Below, in pieces: positions 15,655 through 23,482 of a DNA stretch of 39,849 nucleotides. This DNA comes from Myxococcales bacterium (lineage in GTDB: Bacteria > Lernaellota > Lernaellaia > Lernaellales > Lernaellaceae). The stretch lies in contig JAAYVF010000066.1 of assembly GCA_012517325.1 (NCBI GenBank), positions 1-39,849 of the forward strand, given 5' to 3'. The notes below the pieces were generated by a model. That model made no database searches and was not told where the DNA came from. It saw only the letters and a program-made list of their open reading frames with translations. Position 1 is the first letter of the stretch, and the number at the start of each line of letters is the position of its first letter. A program made the translations under genes and the position numbers.

Positions 15655-16205
15655 TGATCGGCCTGATTGGTTTGTTGCTGGCGACGGTCGCTTGTCACCA
15701 GAAAGACAAGAACGCTTCCGGGGAAGAGGAATTCGGCCCCAAGGAACTGCTGCCCGACAAAACCGAGGCGAACGCCGAAACGGGCGGCACCACGATCGTC
15801 GTGGCGGGCGATGTTGTGGTTGTGGAACTGACGGTTTACCATCCGCCCTTCGTCTACCTGACCGGCGAATCGCCGGTGACGGTCATGGCGCCGGTCGAAC
15901 CCCACTGTGTTTTCGAACAGGCGCTGTTTCCGATGAAAGTCGCGCGCTTTCCCTTGGAAGTCCGCTTTCAGATCGCGCCGCGCGCGGCGCCGGCTTCGTT
16001 CGTGCTGAAACTCGGCTTGCGGATCAATTACGCCTACAAATCCGACGAAAAGCCGTTGTTTAAAAACACGCTGATCGACGTTCCGCTCAAAATCGTGCCG
16101 ATCGCCGAGGGGCACGTGCCGAAAATGGTGCGTATTCCGCTCGAACATTTTTTAACCGTCGCCGAAGAAGTGGAAACCCCGCCGCAGGAGAACGCTGCAC
16201 CATGA
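15639..16205 (+). CDS. Lipoprotein with DsbD-N-like Ig fold, coupled to yedF
   Basis: The TTG start gives a 188-aa protein with a lipoprotein signal (RKLLMIGLIGLLLATVA-C19). After an acidic linker comes one beta-sandwich domain (about residues 45-170). The strand pattern (VVVVELTVYHPP, FPLEVRFQIAPRAAPASFVLKLGLRINYAY, DVPLKIVPI) resembles the N-terminal domain of DsbD/thiol-disulfide reductants. The Cys pair that such domains use is absent: one Cys remains (EPHCVF) besides the lipobox. The resemblance is my inference from pattern only. It overlaps the Nudix stop by 16 nt and shares ATGA with yedF, so it is translated with the selenium genes. A periplasmic sulfur/selenium redox or binding role is possible but unproven. 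Confidence 0.65.
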   Translation: MRKLLMIGLIGLLLATVACHQKDKNASGEEEFGPKELLPDKTEANAETGGTTIVVAGDVVVVELTVYHPPFVYLTGESPVTVMAPVEPHCVFEQALFPMKVARFPLEVRFQIAPRAAPASFVLKLGLRINYAYKSDEKPLFKNTLIDVPLKIVPIAEGHVPKMVRIPLEHFLTVAEEVETPPQENAAP

Positions 16206-16792
16206 AAAAACTGGATGTCAGGGGACTGGCCTGCCCCGAACCGATCGTCCGCGCCAAACGGGCCCTGCTCGATGAACGCGAACCGCAAGTGCTGCTGATC
16301 GTGGATTCGGCGGTGACGCGCGACAACCTCAAGAAATTCGCCGCCGCCAAGGGTCTGCAATTTGCCGAATCCGCGCAAGGTCAGGAATGGCAAATTACCC
16401 TTACCGCCACCGGCGAGGCCGGCGCGGGCCAGACCGCGGCGGGCGGCGTTTTGAAAAAGGGCCCGGTGGTGCTCGTTCGCCGCCGCACGTTCGGCGAGCC
16501 CAGCGGCGAGTTGGGAACGATCCTCATCCGCGCCTTTTTTAAAACGCTCGGCGATTTGGAAGTCCTGCCGGAGAAGATCATCTTCATCAACGAAGGCGTG
16601 CAACTGGCCTGTCACGACGAGGCCGTCATCGAGTATTGCGGCAAGCTCGCGGCCGCGGGCGTCGAAATCGTGAGCTGCGGCACCTGCCTCGATTACTTCA
16701 ACTTGGTGTCCGGTTTGAAGGTCGGCCGGGCCGGCAACATGTACGACATTGCCGGGGCCCTGATGGAGGCCGCTCACGTCGTGGAGCCCTGA
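16202..16792 (+). CDS. yedF: Selenium metabolism protein YedF (TusA + DsrE-like)
   Basis: A 196-aa two-domain protein. Residues 1-75 are a TusA/SirA-like domain with the active Cys C11 (DVRGLACPEPIVRAK). Residues about 86-196 are a DsrE-like domain with C137 (VQLACHDE) and C159-x2-C162 (CGTCLDYF). This architecture is the sulfurtransferase-like selenium metabolism protein YedF, found with selenocysteine genes and thought to handle a reactive Se/S persulfide; the exact reaction is not settled. It overlaps the upstream lipoprotein (ATGA) and is followed after 3 nt by the desulfurase, its presumed Se donor. Confidence 0.9.
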   Translation: MKKLDVRGLACPEPIVRAKRALLDEREPQVLLIVDSAVTRDNLKKFAAAKGLQFAESAQGQEWQITLTATGEAGAGQTAAGGVLKKGPVVLVRRRTFGEPSGELGTILIRAFFKTLGDLEVLPEKIIFINEGVQLACHDEAVIEYCGKLAAAGVEIVSCGTCLDYFNLVSGLKVGRAGNMYDIAGALMEAAHVVEP

Positions 16793-16795
16793 GGC

Positions 16796-17956
16796 ATGGC
16801 CGAAAACGGACATTTGTACTTCGACAACGCCGCCACCAGCTATCCCAAACCGGCGGAAGTGTATGCGGCGCTGGATCGCTACGCGCGCGAGGAAGGCGGC
16901 TCGGCGGGGCGGGGCGCCCATGCCCGCGCCGTCGCCGGCAGCCGGTTGCTGTTCAATCTGCGCGAGGAACTGGCTGCTTTACTGGGCGGACACCCGGACC
17001 GTCTTGTGTTGACCCGCCACGCCACCGAGGCGCTCAACCTGGCGTTGTTTTCGCTGATCGAACCGGGAGCCGTCGTGGCTCACGGCGCGCTCGAGCACAA
17101 TGCCGTCATGCGCCCCTTGCAGCATCTCGCGGCGACGCGCGGCGTCCGGTTGCTCGAAATCCCGGGCGACGCCGACGGCCGCCTGACCCCCGACGCGCTG
17201 CGCCGGGCGCTCGCCGCGGAGCCGATCGCCGCGGTCGTCACCCTGCACGGTTCCAACGTCAACGGCGCGATACAGGATTTGGCGGCCCTGGGCGAGTTGT
17301 GCCGAGCGCGCGAAATTCCGTTCATCGTCGATGCCGCCCAGACGGCCGGTTGCTGGCCGATCGACCAGGAAGCCATGGGCATCGACGCCTTGTGCGTCAC
17401 CGGCCATAAAAGCCTGCTCGGTCCGACGGGCGTCGGCGCGTTGCTGCTCGCCGCGCGCGTCGCCGAGCGCGTCGCGCCGCTCGTTCACGGCGGCACCGGA
17501 TCGGAATCGGAAAAGGAAACGATGCCCGATTTTCTGCCCGATCGGCTCGAAGCGGGCACGCCCAACACGTTCGGGGCGGCCGGCCTGTTGGCGGGGGTTC
17601 GCTACGTGACGCGGCGGACCGTGGCGGCGGTGCGCCGCCACGAGGACGAACTGCGCGGCCGGTTGCGCGAGCGGTTGCGGGCGATACCCGGCCTGCGCGT
17701 GCTGGCTGCGGACGGTGACGCGCTGGCGGTGGTCAGCGTGGTCGGCGCCGTGGCGCCATCCGACCTGGCGTTTCTCCTGAGCGAACGCTACGGCATCGCG
17801 ACGCGCGCCGGATTGCATTGCGCGCCGCGCGCCCACCGCACGCTCGGCACGCTGGCGATGGGCGCCCTCCGGCTCGCGCCCGGCCCCTTGACGCCGCCGG
17901 CGGCGGTCGACGAAGTGGCCGCTGCCCTGCACGATTTGCTGGGAGCGCTGGCATGA
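16796..17956 (+). CDS. NifS/SufS-like cysteine desulfurase of the selenium operon
   Basis: A 386-aa class V aminotransferase-fold PLP enzyme. PLP Lys is K205 (VTGHKSLLGPTG), the stacking His is H101 (LEHNAVM), D179 is in VDAAQT, and the mobile-loop catalytic Cys is C342 (GLHCAPRAHRTLGT). The GLHCAP-x-AH pattern belongs to the desulfurase subfamily found in selenium clusters next to YedF. It removes S or Se from (seleno)cysteine as a persulfide or perselenide, here likely passed to YedF and the DUF3343 protein for SelD. It lies 3 nt after yedF and shares ATGA with the next gene. Confidence 0.9.
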   Translation: MAENGHLYFDNAATSYPKPAEVYAALDRYAREEGGSAGRGAHARAVAGSRLLFNLREELAALLGGHPDRLVLTRHATEALNLALFSLIEPGAVVAHGALEHNAVMRPLQHLAATRGVRLLEIPGDADGRLTPDALRRALAAEPIAAVVTLHGSNVNGAIQDLAALGELCRAREIPFIVDAAQTAGCWPIDQEAMGIDALCVTGHKSLLGPTGVGALLLAARVAERVAPLVHGGTGSESEKETMPDFLPDRLEAGTPNTFGAAGLLAGVRYVTRRTVAAVRRHEDELRGRLRERLRAIPGLRVLAADGDALAVVSVVGAVAPSDLAFLLSERYGIATRAGLHCAPRAHRTLGTLAMGALRLAPGPLTPPAAVDEVAAALHDLLGALA

Positions 17957-18204
17957 CGGTCTGCGCCTTGATCTTCCGCAGCGTTCACGACGTGCTCAAG
18001 GCCGAAAAGATCGTGCTGGGAAAAAACCTGGCGGTACGGCTGATTCCGGTTCCGAAACAAGTCGATCCCGATTGCGGAGTGGCGTTGCAGATCTCCTGCG
18101 AACAGCGTGACGAGATTCTTTTTCTGCTGGCCGAACTGCACCACCGGCTGAAGGGCGTTTACCTCGTCGATGGCACGAGGTTCTCGCCGCTCGAGGACCG
18201 ATGA
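17953..18204 (+). CDS. DUF3343 putative Se/S carrier-like protein
   Basis: An 83-aa protein of the DUF3343 family (FRSVHDVLKAEKIVL start, LIPVPKQVDPDCGVALQI core). Family members carry a conserved Cys in the DCGVAL loop (here C41) and are repeatedly found between a NifS-like desulfurase and selenium genes; a role as a Se/S carrier has been proposed. The start is fixed by ATGA overlap with the desulfurase. It overlaps selB by 4 nt. Confidence 0.85.
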   Translation: MTVCALIFRSVHDVLKAEKIVLGKNLAVRLIPVPKQVDPDCGVALQISCEQRDEILFLLAELHHRLKGVYLVDGTRFSPLEDR

Positions 18205-20117
18205 GCACCCGTCGCCTGGTCATGGGCACCGCCGGTCACATCGATCACGGCAAAACCAGCCTGATCAAAATGCTGACCGGCGTGGATTGCGACCGCCTAC
18301 CCGAGGAAAAAGCCCGCGGCATCACCATCGAACTGGGCTTCACCCATCTGGAACTGCCGTCCGGTTTCGCCGTCGGCGTGGTGGACGTGCCGGGGCACGA
18401 GCGTTTCGTGCGCGCCATGGTGGCCGGCGCGGCGGGCATCGACTTCGTGCTGTTCGTCGTCGCCGCCGACGAGGGCGTCATGCCGCAAACCCGCGAGCAC
18501 TTCGCCATCTGCCGCCTGCTGGGCCTGCGCCACGGACTGATCGCCCTGACCAAGGCCGATCTGGTGGACGACGAGATGCTCACCCTGGTGAAAGACGAGC
18601 TGGCCGAGCTGACGGCCGGCACTTTCTTGGCGGCGGCGCCCGTGGTGCCGGTCAGCGCCGTGACCGGCGCCGGCCGCGAAGCGATCCGGCAAGCGATCGA
18701 CGACGTGGCCCGGGCGGTCGTCGAACGCAGCGACAGCGGCATCTTCCGCCTGCCGATCGACCGGGTGTTCACGATCAAGGGTTTCGGCACGGTGGTCACG
18801 GGCACCTGCATCGGCGGGCAGGTCGCGGTGGGCGACGAGGTGGAGATCCTGCCGGAAGGGCGGCGGGCCCGGGTGCGGGGGTTGCAGGTTCATGAAAAGC
18901 CGGTCGAGGCCGCTTACGCGGGGCAGCGCACGGCCGTGAATCTGCAGGGCATCGAACTGCAGGAAGTATCCCGTGGCGCCATGCTCGCGACGCCGGACGT
19001 TCTGACGCCGACCCAAATCATCGACGTCGAAACGGAGCTGCTGCCCGAGGCCCCGCGCCCGATCAAGCACCGCAGCCTCGTGCGGGTCCATTGTTACACC
19101 CGGGAAGTCATGGCCCGCGCGGTGCCGCTCAATTTCGAGGTGCTGGAAGCCGGCCAAACGGGGCTGTTGCAACTGCGGTTGGCCGAGCCGCTGATCGCCC
19201 TGCCGGGCGACCGTTTCGTGTTGCGCTCGTATTCGCCGGTGCTGACGGTCGGCGGCGGCACCATCCTGAACTCGCAGGCGAACAAACACCGCGCGCCCTA
19301 TGCGGAGGCGCTGGCCGATCTGCAGATCCTGCGCACCGGGACGCTGGCCGACCGCCTGGCCGTGCACTATCGGCAGGCGGGTCGTTACGGCCGGCGGCTG
19401 GCGCGCCTGGCGCCACTGGTCGGGCTGCACGAAAAGGGATTGCGCGAGGAATACCAGAAACTGCTCAGCTGCCGCCGGATCGTGCGGATCGACGCCGACA
19501 CCGAAAACGCCGTCGACGCCGAAGTCTTCGCCGCTTTACAGGCGGAACTGTTGGAACTGGTGGCCGCCCATCACCGCGACCACCCGTACGAGCCCGGCAT
19601 CAGCCGGGCCGAATTGCTCGGCCGCGCGGGGGTGGGCGCCGAGGCGAAAGTCGTGCAAAAAGCCCTGTCCGCCCTGGCCGCGGAAAAGAAGGCGGTCATC
19701 GAGGGAAATCTCGTCCATGCGCCGACGCACGACGCGGCGGCCGACGAGGCCATGCAACGATCGGTCGCGCGGCTGCACGAAGCGATCCGCCAGGCGGGGA
19801 TGGCCGCGCCGACCTACAAAGAGTTGCAGGAAACCGAACCGGACCCGAAATTGCTCGATCAGGCCCTGGCGGTGCTGACGCGGGAAAGCCGGATCCGGCG
19901 CGTCGGTCCGACGCTGTTTTACGACGCGGCGGTGCTGGCCGAGGCGCAGGAGCGATTGACGGCCTACCTCGCCGCGCACGGTGATATCGACGCCCAGGGG
20001 ATGAAGACGCTATACGGCATCAGCCGCAAGTGGACCATTCCGCTCGCCGAATATTTCGACGCCCAGCGCCTGACCCTACGCGTCGGCGACAAGCGCACGC
20101 TTCGCCGGATGAAGTAG
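18201..20117 (+). CDS. selB: Selenocysteine-specific elongation factor SelB
   Basis: A 638-aa translational GTPase. G1 is GTAGHIDHGKTS (residues 9-20), G3 is DVPGHERF, G4 is LTKADLV, and the switch segment is EKARGITIELGF. Domains II-III are EF-Tu-like (VFTIKGFGTVVTGTC, GDRFVLRSYSPVLTVGGG). The C-terminal part from about 380 is the set of winged helices that bind the SECIS RNA (KWTIPLAEYFD and KRTLRRMK at the end are typical). It delivers Sec-tRNA to UGA codons with a SECIS element. Its presence means the organism encodes selenoproteins. selA, selD and the tRNA gene selC are not in this window. It is the last gene of the operon, converging on the FHA gene with 35 bp between. Confidence 0.95.
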   Translation: MSTRRLVMGTAGHIDHGKTSLIKMLTGVDCDRLPEEKARGITIELGFTHLELPSGFAVGVVDVPGHERFVRAMVAGAAGIDFVLFVVAADEGVMPQTREHFAICRLLGLRHGLIALTKADLVDDEMLTLVKDELAELTAGTFLAAAPVVPVSAVTGAGREAIRQAIDDVARAVVERSDSGIFRLPIDRVFTIKGFGTVVTGTCIGGQVAVGDEVEILPEGRRARVRGLQVHEKPVEAAYAGQRTAVNLQGIELQEVSRGAMLATPDVLTPTQIIDVETELLPEAPRPIKHRSLVRVHCYTREVMARAVPLNFEVLEAGQTGLLQLRLAEPLIALPGDRFVLRSYSPVLTVGGGTILNSQANKHRAPYAEALADLQILRTGTLADRLAVHYRQAGRYGRRLARLAPLVGLHEKGLREEYQKLLSCRRIVRIDADTENAVDAEVFAALQAELLELVAAHHRDHPYEPGISRAELLGRAGVGAEAKVVQKALSALAAEKKAVIEGNLVHAPTHDAAADEAMQRSVARLHEAIRQAGMAAPTYKELQETEPDPKLLDQALAVLTRESRIRRVGPTLFYDAAVLAEAQERLTAYLAAHGDIDAQGMKTLYGISRKWTIPLAEYFDAQRLTLRVGDKRTLRRMK

Positions 20118-21091: not shown

Positions 21092-23482
21092 CTAGGGTTG
21101 AGGGAACGGAATCGGGAAAACGGTTTGTTGCAGCACCAGCGGCTCGATCCGATTCGCCGGATCATCGGTGATCCAGGTCATAAAACGATCCGTATAGCGT
21201 AGGTAATACAATGAATAAGTCGCTTGCAGGGGAAACGCCACATCCGGTGGGATCTCGATATTGTACTCGTCCAGATAGGGATGATCCGGCGAAATCCATT
21301 TGCGGTTGATAATGTCTACATAGGACAGCGAATCCATCGGCTCGATCCAGTTTCCGGTCGCGTCCACTTCCAGCCGGCCCAACTGGTGATCCGGCACGTC
21401 GGGGGAACCGCTCTTCCAGATCTCGCGACCCAGATTGTCCCGGATTTCCAACGCCAGCCAGGATCGGGTGATATTGGCGAAAAGGGAACTGGGAAAATCG
21501 TGCGCGACGTTGCGACTGGCTGCGGTCAGGCCGAGCCGCAGTCGCCAGGGCTGGGCGGAGCGGTCCCAGACCATGGTGGTCAAATTGAAAAGAAAATGGC
21601 CCTTTTTATCGCCGACTAGATTGTCGAGGCCGCGGATTTTATTCAACGTGCGGGCGTAATTGTTGACCCGATAGGCTTTCAGTGTTTCGTCCAAAAAGGT
21701 CGATAGCTGGTACAGCGGCACCAACTCGGATCGCAGCCATAGCTTTTGATTGTCGGCGAAGAGGACGAGTTGCTCTTGCTGCGTCGCTTCGGTTTCCAAG
21801 GCGGTTTTCGGCAGCAGATAATGGATGCCGAACATCCGGTGATCCTGCCAGGTGTATTGGTACTCATCTCGTTCCAAGCGGGGCATGTGGCAGGATTGGC
21901 ATGGAAAGGTTTTGGCGAAGGACGAAGCGCGATAGGAACTGACGTTGTCGAGCGGAATGTGCAAATGGCCGTTTCTGGTCGATTCCAGCGAATGGCAAGG
22001 AAAACAGCCGCTGCCGTCCTTGGTGATCGGCGGCGCGAAATCCTGCACATGTTCCAGAACGCTACGCAGCATATAGGCCTGCCGTTGATCGGAATCCTGA
22101 TAAAGCCGATCAACCCGCGGCAGTGATACGGCGTATTCGCCGTTTTTATCGTTGGCCCGGCGCATCAGGTGACAGGCGCGGCAACTGACCCCTTCGCTTT
22201 GACGGACATGCTCCGGATCGATCAGCAAACCTGGATTCTCGTTGAACGATACCGCCGGATCATGGCAAACGGCGCAATGACGCAGAATTTCGGTTCCATG
22301 CTTTGCCGCCAAAGCCTGCGCCGTTCGCTGAAAAGGAAGATTTTTTGCGGCATAAGCGTGAACGGAAACAACCCATTGGCGATAGGGCACTTCATGGCAT
22401 TTTTTGCATTCGATGCTTTTTTCAAGCGTCGCCGGAGGTAAATTTCGGAAGATCAGGTTTTCTTTTTTTGCCAGCGGTTCGGTGACGTATTGGTGGCGAT
22501 CAAGCGAGGCTTGAATCAAATGCTGTTTGGCTTCGGTAAAGGAATAAAACGCCAAACCGGTGGCGGCGCAAAGGATCAGCGCCGGAAGATAGTAAGCGTG
22601 TCGCCAACGAGTCGGAAAAAAGAGCCGGGAAGACAGCAACAGCAGGTAATACCCACCGAAAAAAAACAGACCGAAAGCAAAAAGCGAATGAATTTTCCGG
22701 TAGAAAAAGGCAAACCGCAGGGCGACCGGATTTAAGGTTGAATAGATCCCGGTGATCACGACGAGAAGCAGAAAATAATGAGCCAGGCACCACCAACGGG
22801 TCAGCATGGCATCCCGATGTACGGGACCGCGGGTGAATACCAGGTAAAACAAGATTAACGGGAGAACGGAAATATTGACGAAAAAAACCAAGAGCAAGGG
22901 GACCGGTGCCAGGAGAGACCAAATCATTAATAATGGGTAGGCCAGAAAGGAAATGGTCAGCAATTTGGAGTGGAAGCGCCATAAGGCGAACAACAAATAG
23001 AGAAGCGTCAGCAAGGCGAATAACGAACCGATGACGGTATGCAACTGCAATTGCCGTTCATAAACCGGCGCCAGACTCAGGTTACAAACGAGCCAACCGG
23101 TGTTGAGCCAGAGGATCAGGAGACTGGCGAGATAGAGAAAAGACAGCAAACCGAGGCCGATTCTTTGTTTACGTCCGGGAGGGCGAATGGCCGGTGCGAG
23201 GGGAGACGCCGGTTCCACGTCGGCCGGTGGTTGAAGCCAGTGGCGAGAAAGAAAACGGAAGAAAGCGACCAAAATCCAACCGTAGACGGCGGCCATCAAC
23301 AGGCCGGCTAGGGAGATCAGCAAATTAATGCCGACGCTTTGATAATCTCCCTCCCGCCAAGGTGTAATGCTGTTGGAAATACGGTTGTAAATATTGATAA
23401 GTGCCCAAAAGAAAATTAAAACAAACGAAAGCGCGGCGAAAAATAGAAATAAATATTTAAATGTATTTTTTAAAAAGTTCAT
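21092..23482 (-). CDS. Polytopic membrane cytochrome with five c-type hemes
   Basis: This 796-aa protein has two halves. The N-terminal about 340 residues hold roughly nine hydrophobic helices (e.g. LFLFFAALSFVLIFFWALI, INLLISLAGLLMAAVYGWIL, LFAFGLFFFGGYYLLLL). The C-terminal periplasmic part carries five CxxCH heme sites: CKKCH, CAVCH, CRACH, CFPCH, CQSCH, followed by a heme-free beta-rich region. It probably passes electrons between the quinone pool and periplasmic or outer-membrane acceptors. I cannot match it to a named respiratory complex. Base composition is clearly lower in GC than the neighbours and the 5' end is AT-rich. No good ribosome binding site precedes the ATG at 23482. Both suggest recent acquisition. 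Confidence 0.8.
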   Translation of the reverse strand: MNFLKNTFKYLFLFFAALSFVLIFFWALINIYNRISNSITPWREGDYQSVGINLLISLAGLLMAAVYGWILVAFFRFLSRHWLQPPADVEPASPLAPAIRPPGRKQRIGLGLLSFLYLASLLILWLNTGWLVCNLSLAPVYERQLQLHTVIGSLFALLTLLYLLFALWRFHSKLLTISFLAYPLLMIWSLLAPVPLLLVFFVNISVLPLILFYLVFTRGPVHRDAMLTRWWCLAHYFLLLVVITGIYSTLNPVALRFAFFYRKIHSLFAFGLFFFGGYYLLLLSSRLFFPTRWRHAYYLPALILCAATGLAFYSFTEAKQHLIQASLDRHQYVTEPLAKKENLIFRNLPPATLEKSIECKKCHEVPYRQWVVSVHAYAAKNLPFQRTAQALAAKHGTEILRHCAVCHDPAVSFNENPGLLIDPEHVRQSEGVSCRACHLMRRANDKNGEYAVSLPRVDRLYQDSDQRQAYMLRSVLEHVQDFAPPITKDGSGCFPCHSLESTRNGHLHIPLDNVSSYRASSFAKTFPCQSCHMPRLERDEYQYTWQDHRMFGIHYLLPKTALETEATQQEQLVLFADNQKLWLRSELVPLYQLSTFLDETLKAYRVNNYARTLNKIRGLDNLVGDKKGHFLFNLTTMVWDRSAQPWRLRLGLTAASRNVAHDFPSSLFANITRSWLALEIRDNLGREIWKSGSPDVPDHQLGRLEVDATGNWIEPMDSLSYVDIINRKWISPDHPYLDEYNIEIPPDVAFPLQATYSLYYLRYTDRFMTWITDDPANRIEPLVLQQTVFPIPFPQP

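Follow-up and report, generated by a model that had tools for sequence, protein, structure and literature searches.

The gene at positions 21092-23482 of the window (the whole stretch of DNA that was analysed, 39,849 nucleotides) codes for what appears to be a member of a widespread, apparently undescribed family, in which a putative haem b membrane unit is joined to a five-haem periplasmic wire. It is a single uninterrupted frame of 796 amino acids on the minus strand, with CXXCH motifs at residues 359, 403, 434, 493 and 528. Its probable role is to connect the quinone pool of the membrane with the periplasm by electron transfer. The preliminary description as a nine-TM, five-haem protein is borne out: the open reading frame is real, with five CXXCH motifs and about nine TM helices. 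It had recognised the membrane and pentaheme parts and had missed both the probable C-terminal Ig-like domain and the recurrence of the architecture elsewhere. Its statement that the architecture could not be matched to a known complex is correct for the exact fusion, whereas each of the two halves corresponds to a type of cytochrome already known. The novelty is the fusion; both component cytochrome types are already known, and no description of their fusion was found in the literature searched, most subscription journals lying outside the search. The features of the gene are as follows.

21092..23482, minus strand: fusion protein of 796 aa, with a putative cytochrome b, a pentaheme cytochrome c and a putative Ig-like part; intact open reading frame with a near full-length homologue in genome G294 (E 5e-75)
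22448..23482, minus strand: membrane half, residues 1-345, about nine TM helices, putative DUF4405-like cytochrome b (hydropathy, invariant residues, weak family matches in homologues only)
23039..23041, minus strand: H148 codon, predicted haem b ligand at the periplasmic end of a TM helix (conservation)
22688..22690, minus strand: H265 codon, predicted second ligand of the same haem b (conservation, 25/25 and 24/24)
21803..22423, minus strand: pentaheme domain, about residues 354-560 (Pfam Cytochrome_C554, 5.2e-8; profile against 5ze8, 6.6e-14)
22394..22408, minus strand: haem c site 1, CKKCH (motif)
22262..22276, minus strand: haem c site 2, CAVCH (motif, invariant)
22169..22183, minus strand: haem c site 3, CRACH (motif, invariant)
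21992..22006, minus strand: haem c site 4, CFPCH (motif, invariant)
21887..21901, minus strand: haem c site 5, CQSCH (motif, invariant)
21113..21595, minus strand: putative C-terminal Ig-like (beta-sandwich) domain, about residues 630-790 (collinear, individually weak 5ze8 match; conserved motif round H661)
21500..21502, minus strand: H661 codon, Ig-like domain; probably encodes the distal ligand to one of the c haems (conservation)

Judged by its sequence, the soluble half is a member of the pentaheme cytochrome (PHC) family of T. tepidum c552 and Geobacter ExtKL. Besides the Pfam match, the 796-aa sequence alone matched 5ze8, an entry named cytochrome c552, in the PDB (4.6e-5). We take 5ze8 to be the penta-haem c552 of Thermochromatium tepidum with its Ig-like domain; its structure paper is reportedly that of Chen et al. 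2019. The match of the family profile to 5ze8 is collinear and consists of 45 bits for haems 1-3, 9 bits for haems 4-5 and 4.2 bits for the Ig-like part, the latter two pieces being weak when taken alone. The five c-haem motifs, all CXXCH, stand in collinear order and align with 5ze8 at sites 1-3 and 4-5. The ExtKL model gave weak matches for relatives and 0.012 for the 796-aa protein. As far as the excerpted text of PMC11976967 goes, the PHC family comprises the T. tepidum c552-type proteins and Geobacter ExtKL and Gsu2801, and is related to the archaeal nanowire AvECN. In its members, including sPHC and lPHC of cable bacteria, an Ig-like domain comes after the five c haems; the 796-aa protein has five haem motifs and, behind them, a putative Ig-like domain. 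The family members are described there as carrying a signal peptide and as lacking a polytopic membrane domain, whereas here such a domain precedes the haems (PMC11976967). Two AlphaFold models had mean pLDDT values of 50 and 39, and beta strands for the Ig-like domain were seen only in these low-confidence models.

Conservation was assessed in 25 fused proteins, a 60% non-redundant set from 58 proteins of at least 600 aa that includes the 796-aa protein. Nine histidines are present in all 25, namely the five motif histidines and H375, H478, H548 and H661. The last is also histidine in 27 of the 29 rows of the soluble set, which includes the 796-aa protein, and lies in the post-haem domain within the motif AHDFPSS, whose aligned counterpart reads GH.FP.GP in most relatives. 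CXXCH is invariant in the family alignment at sites 2-5. Site 1, CKKCH here, is CX4CH or CX5CH in the other nine copies of the same genome and in many family members. The CX5CH form was observed in four copies of the genome (L022:7977-10049, L023:7027-9054, L171:7580-9865 and L172:7035-9146) and in the copies of the genome G002; an S-x-H after the CX5CH site is kept, so covalent haem at the five-residue spacing is possible.

Since there are four invariant non-motif histidines for five c haems, one c haem is without a universally conserved histidine ligand. The protein could accordingly be read as a membrane-bound terminal reductase, in which quinol electrons run through the haems to a substrate at one c haem without a distal histidine, so that donor complex and enzyme form one chain. 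Among the less strong matches of the profile are MccA and cytochrome c nitrite reductases, and ten copies in one genome could mean ten substrates. No CXXCK or other catalytic signature was seen, however, the fifth ligand may be a histidine that shifts among subfamilies, a methionine or another group, and most of the reductase matches span only the region of haems 4-5. We regard a terminal reductase as unlikely.

For the membrane half, a DUF4405-like cytochrome b is the most likely identity. With the hydropathy cut set to 1.6, seven TM segments were obtained, and with 1.3 eight, all before the first haem site; nine are obtained when the 42-residue hydrophobic stretch 174-215 is split at its APVP turn. 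Lysine and arginine counts (16 inside, 10 outside) fit a cytoplasmic N-terminus and a haem domain on the outer, periplasmic side. H148 is histidine in all 24 rows of the 25-row alignment that have a residue there (one row has a gap), and G245 and H265 are each present in 25/25. In a separate alignment of 24 membrane halves, H148, G245, H265 and P336 were found in every row, and the H148/H265 pair is kept in membrane halves that are only 12-21% identical to that of the 796-aa protein. A second pair of membrane histidines occurs in 14/25 and 12/25 fused proteins, as though the family could do with or without a second haem b, which about half of its members would carry. The 796-aa protein lacks this pair; the aligned positions are A166 and Y279.

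When the 24 membrane halves were searched one by one against Pfam with E values up to 0.1, five matched DUF4405 (best 1.2e-4), two cytochrome b561 (Ni_hydr_CYTB) and one Ferric_reduct, all below the cut-offs wherever bit scores were given. Four homologues scored 16.1-20.3 bits for DUF4405 (PF14358) as full proteins, under the curated cut-off of 26.7 bits. The 796-aa protein had no Pfam match in its membrane half, whether searched as the whole protein or as the half alone, and so did not reach the DUF4405 cut-off; the host genome had no DUF4405 match above it. Of the four central haem-ligating histidines that characterise DUF4405, the H148/H265 pair is all that was found. DUF4405 proteins bind haem b and were proposed as transmembrane electron carriers, and FezC was shown to bind haem b, according to the parts of PMC11334425 at hand. 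DUF4405 cytochromes and FezC share with the 796-aa protein a multi-helix membrane core with central histidines; they are presented there as not fused to c haems, whereas the 796-aa protein is fused, yet does not match the DUF4405 model (PMC11334425). The conserved histidine pairs, the DUF4405 matches and the haem b binding of DUF4405 proteins together suggest one haem b near the periplasmic face here and a second one in about half of the family. Without the second pair, electrons may not cross the membrane in the 796-aa protein.

The membrane half might instead be an anchor or assembly platform without haem b, the histidine pair serving another role such as metal binding. The 796-aa protein has no significant match to any cytochrome b family, and a PDB search with a profile of the membrane half alone returned no significant cytochrome, cytochrome b included, the best matches being chlorophyll-binding CP43 (E 0.014). 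Against this, the two intramembrane histidines are invariant at 12-21% identity and the membrane parts of some members do match DUF4405. We consider an anchor without haem b improbable.

We favour, with somewhat better than even confidence, a single-chain unit of the cytoplasmic membrane for electron transfer between quinone and periplasm, made of a DUF4405-like haem b core, a PHC chain and the Ig-like domain. The sequence data show the domain make-up, the conservation and the distribution of the protein, whereas its haem b binding, topology, quinone contact, direction and partner are inferred, as follows. The DUF4405-like core would consist of two similar helix pairs, with a position 20 residues before each key histidine that is glycine in most members (T128 and G245 here). 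H148 and H265 would hold haem b between them, close to the periplasmic face, and the odd number of helices would put the PHC-type pentaheme chain on the periplasmic side, where the Ig-like domain may supply one haem ligand, H661. The electron route would link quinol with haem b, the five c haems and a partner in the periplasm; no quinone site was identified. Quinol oxidation as the direction is weakly suggested by CbcL-like designs and by the own genome, in which no COX1 match (that is, no haem-copper oxidase match) was found; a cytochrome c assembly protein is present.

The nearest known designs are CbcL, MtrH and MtoC of Geobacter and others, for which the excerpts of PMC9129911 and PMC6295460 propose or show a link between quinone and periplasm. 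Like the 796-aa protein they have in one chain a membrane b domain (di-haem in CbcL, MtrH and MtoC) and a multihaem c domain (PMC9129911, PMC6295460). Their N-terminal multihaem c and C-terminal six-TM b parts stand in the reverse order of those found here: CbcL, as far as it is described in these sources, has nine c haems N-terminally and a six-helix HydC/FdnI-like b domain C-terminally, whereas the 796-aa protein has the reversed order and a PHC-type c part. Judged by its parts, the 796-aa protein should work as CbcL does, along a route of quinone, haem b, c haems and periplasmic partner. ImcH and CymA/NapC likewise begin with a membrane part, and their periplasmic c haems come after it (PMC6295460). 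The same excerpts give them a short anchor or three TM helices and mention no bis-His cytochrome b core, in contrast to the five to nine TM helices of the fused family (PMC6295460). If the favoured reading is true, the family would be a widespread one-piece conduit between quinone and periplasm, with ten copies in one genome and a near-universal presence in one phylum-level group, of a type that the known gateways CymA, CbcL and ImcH do not cover. It can be searched for by the combination of membrane-core histidine pair, pentaheme domain and Ig-like domain. Two other arrangements were observed. The own genome contains on contig C60 (L176:1003-3069, minus strand) a 688-aa protein with 11 CXXCH motifs followed by a membrane part with histidines in its helices, a CbcL-like layout. 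In the Nitrospirae MAG S146_64 one frame (L031:2601-4820) has ten CXXCH motifs, five N-terminal, then about six TM helices with histidines and then a PHC-like five, which is another order of the same modules.

The neighbours of the fused cytochromes differ between copies. At three loci a membrane-anchored repeat protein, beta-propeller-like by eye and without a Pfam match, lies directly upstream of the fused cytochrome with a 4-base overlap; those of L112 and L118 are homologous (E 5e-37).

L112:10612-12294: membrane-anchored repeat protein
L118:8796-10973: membrane-anchored repeat protein
L021:5903-8095: membrane-anchored repeat protein

At L117 an FG-GAP/UnbV_ASPIC/TPR protein adjoins the fused cytochrome, and a gene with a similar start is found at L113. 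Members of a polytopic family stand beside fused cytochromes in three genomes, and one of them matches spermine/spermidine synthase.

L023:8987-11383: polytopic family member
L171:5009-7615: polytopic family member
L118:4645-6720: polytopic family member
L175:2340-4481: polytopic family member
L115:1422-3692: polytopic family member
L115:10929-13121: polytopic family member

The copy in the window has none of these repeat, FG-GAP/TPR or polytopic neighbours and no adjacent partner gene; it is flanked by an FHA gene on one side and a radical SAM gene on the other. The beta-propeller-like proteins (by eye) of L112, L118 and L021 and the L117 protein would be in line with a reverse flow: a partner such as a beta-propeller protein would carry out an oxidation in the periplasm, and the electrons would reach the quinone pool by way of the pentaheme chain and then haem b. 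Since the window copy lacks such a neighbour, and the neighbours seen elsewhere are without known enzyme activity and several without a Pfam match, we give this direction a small chance. In a further reading, the fused proteins would be the base in the inner membrane on which cytochrome chains are built: haem b would accept electrons from quinol, the tethered pentaheme unit would start or dock a soluble PHC stack via the Ig-like domain, and the paralogues would be tuned to different partners. It is prompted by the relation of the soluble half's family to archaeal extracellular cytochrome nanowires (excerpts of PMC11976967), and we consider it a long shot.

The fused architecture recurs patchily among bacteria. 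A search of the genome contigs with the 796-aa protein alone as query found nothing; with an alignment as query it found 22 relatives, mostly soluble pentahemes. A profile search of 386 diverse genomes (maximum E 1e-10) matched 85 of them, many via soluble pentahemes. The best three candidates per genome were scored. Among the matches inspected, frames whose first haem is preceded by three or more TM segments came from at least 19 of the 386 genomes, with 14 family codes. The phylum of G044 has matches in 78 of its 84 genomes; in 69 of the 84 the match begins no later than profile position 40 and reaches at least position 640, and the members inspected also bear C-terminal TPRs. The phylum of G035 has a full-length match in one of three genomes; in that of G294, six long matches of the fused type come from G294 itself and none from G156. 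So patchy a distribution suggests that the gene was transferred or repeatedly lost.

The closest relative of the 796-aa protein is encoded on contig C24 of G294, a genome of another phylum, with 28% identity over 677 aa; the next best is a paralogue in the own genome (E 8e-32). A quick tree of 46 soluble halves joined the window protein and that of G294 with an SH-aLRT of 98, on a long window branch (2.06). The pair lies inside a 13-row clade (97) of fused proteins from the own genome, G002 and G294 and two soluble rows.

The preliminary description had called the gene compositionally foreign, with about 30-45% GC against about 70% in selB. The GC content is indeed low, 0.521 (0.487 in the N-terminal and 0.546 in the C-terminal half) against 0.678 in selB, but the drop was overstated, 30-45% fitting only the most AT-rich lines. 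In 455 kb sampled from the own genome the GC content was 0.620 (sd 0.040 in windows of the length of the open reading frame), and about 1% of the windows were as low; in a crude set of 316 genes, 3.8% had a GC and 10% a GC3 as low. The flanks have a GC content of 0.663, and the gap of 0.14 is the largest among the ten copies of the genome, the other nine having 0.538-0.652 and lying at most 0.07 from their own flanks. A ribosome binding site had been reported as lacking, and no Shine-Dalgarno-like 4-mer was found upstream. This absence says little, since only 36% of 315 crudely picked genes of the genome have such a 4-mer (17% in shuffled upstream regions).

A foreign origin is further favoured by a synteny junction and by the closest relative in another phylum, whereas the paralogues are genome-wide. 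In the sister genome G001 the left-flank genes up to the FHA gene are together on contig C38 and the right-flank genes from the radical SAM gene on C27. The flanking blocks are thus conserved but on separate contigs, which places the gene at a synteny junction. G002 cannot be compared there because its selB contig ends about 1.1 kb past selB, without an FHA match. Widespread close homologues of the same architecture and matching composition in the host lineage, which had been named as evidence against foreignness, exist in part: among seven genomes of the host class, the own genome has ten fused copies, the sister genus genome G002 three and the other five none. The nearest relative lies outside the lineage, the composition deviates and the gene was not found beside the same genes of the sister genome. 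A horizontal gain is plausible, but it would be an ancient one, and the gene belongs to a family with ten members in the genome. The identity to the closest relative is only 28%, and the quick tree, with its long branch, points to no recent donor.

Several other explanations were considered. A recently acquired foreign gene is weakened by the ten copies and by the low identity to any relative found. A mis-binned contig was rejected for the flanks, whose genes are 37-72% identical to their G001 homologues in two collinear blocks, and an insertion element was rejected, as no notable repeats flank the gene. The alignment with the G294 homologue starts at residue 140 and runs through to the end, which makes an artefactual join within the gene unlikely; an assembly join may still lie beside it. 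At 16202-20117 of the window, a TusA/SirA-like gene, a cysteine desulfurase-like gene and selB lie together, in an order that is kept in G001 and G002. The first two are putative assignments by motif resemblance, and the group is possibly a selenium-handling cluster.
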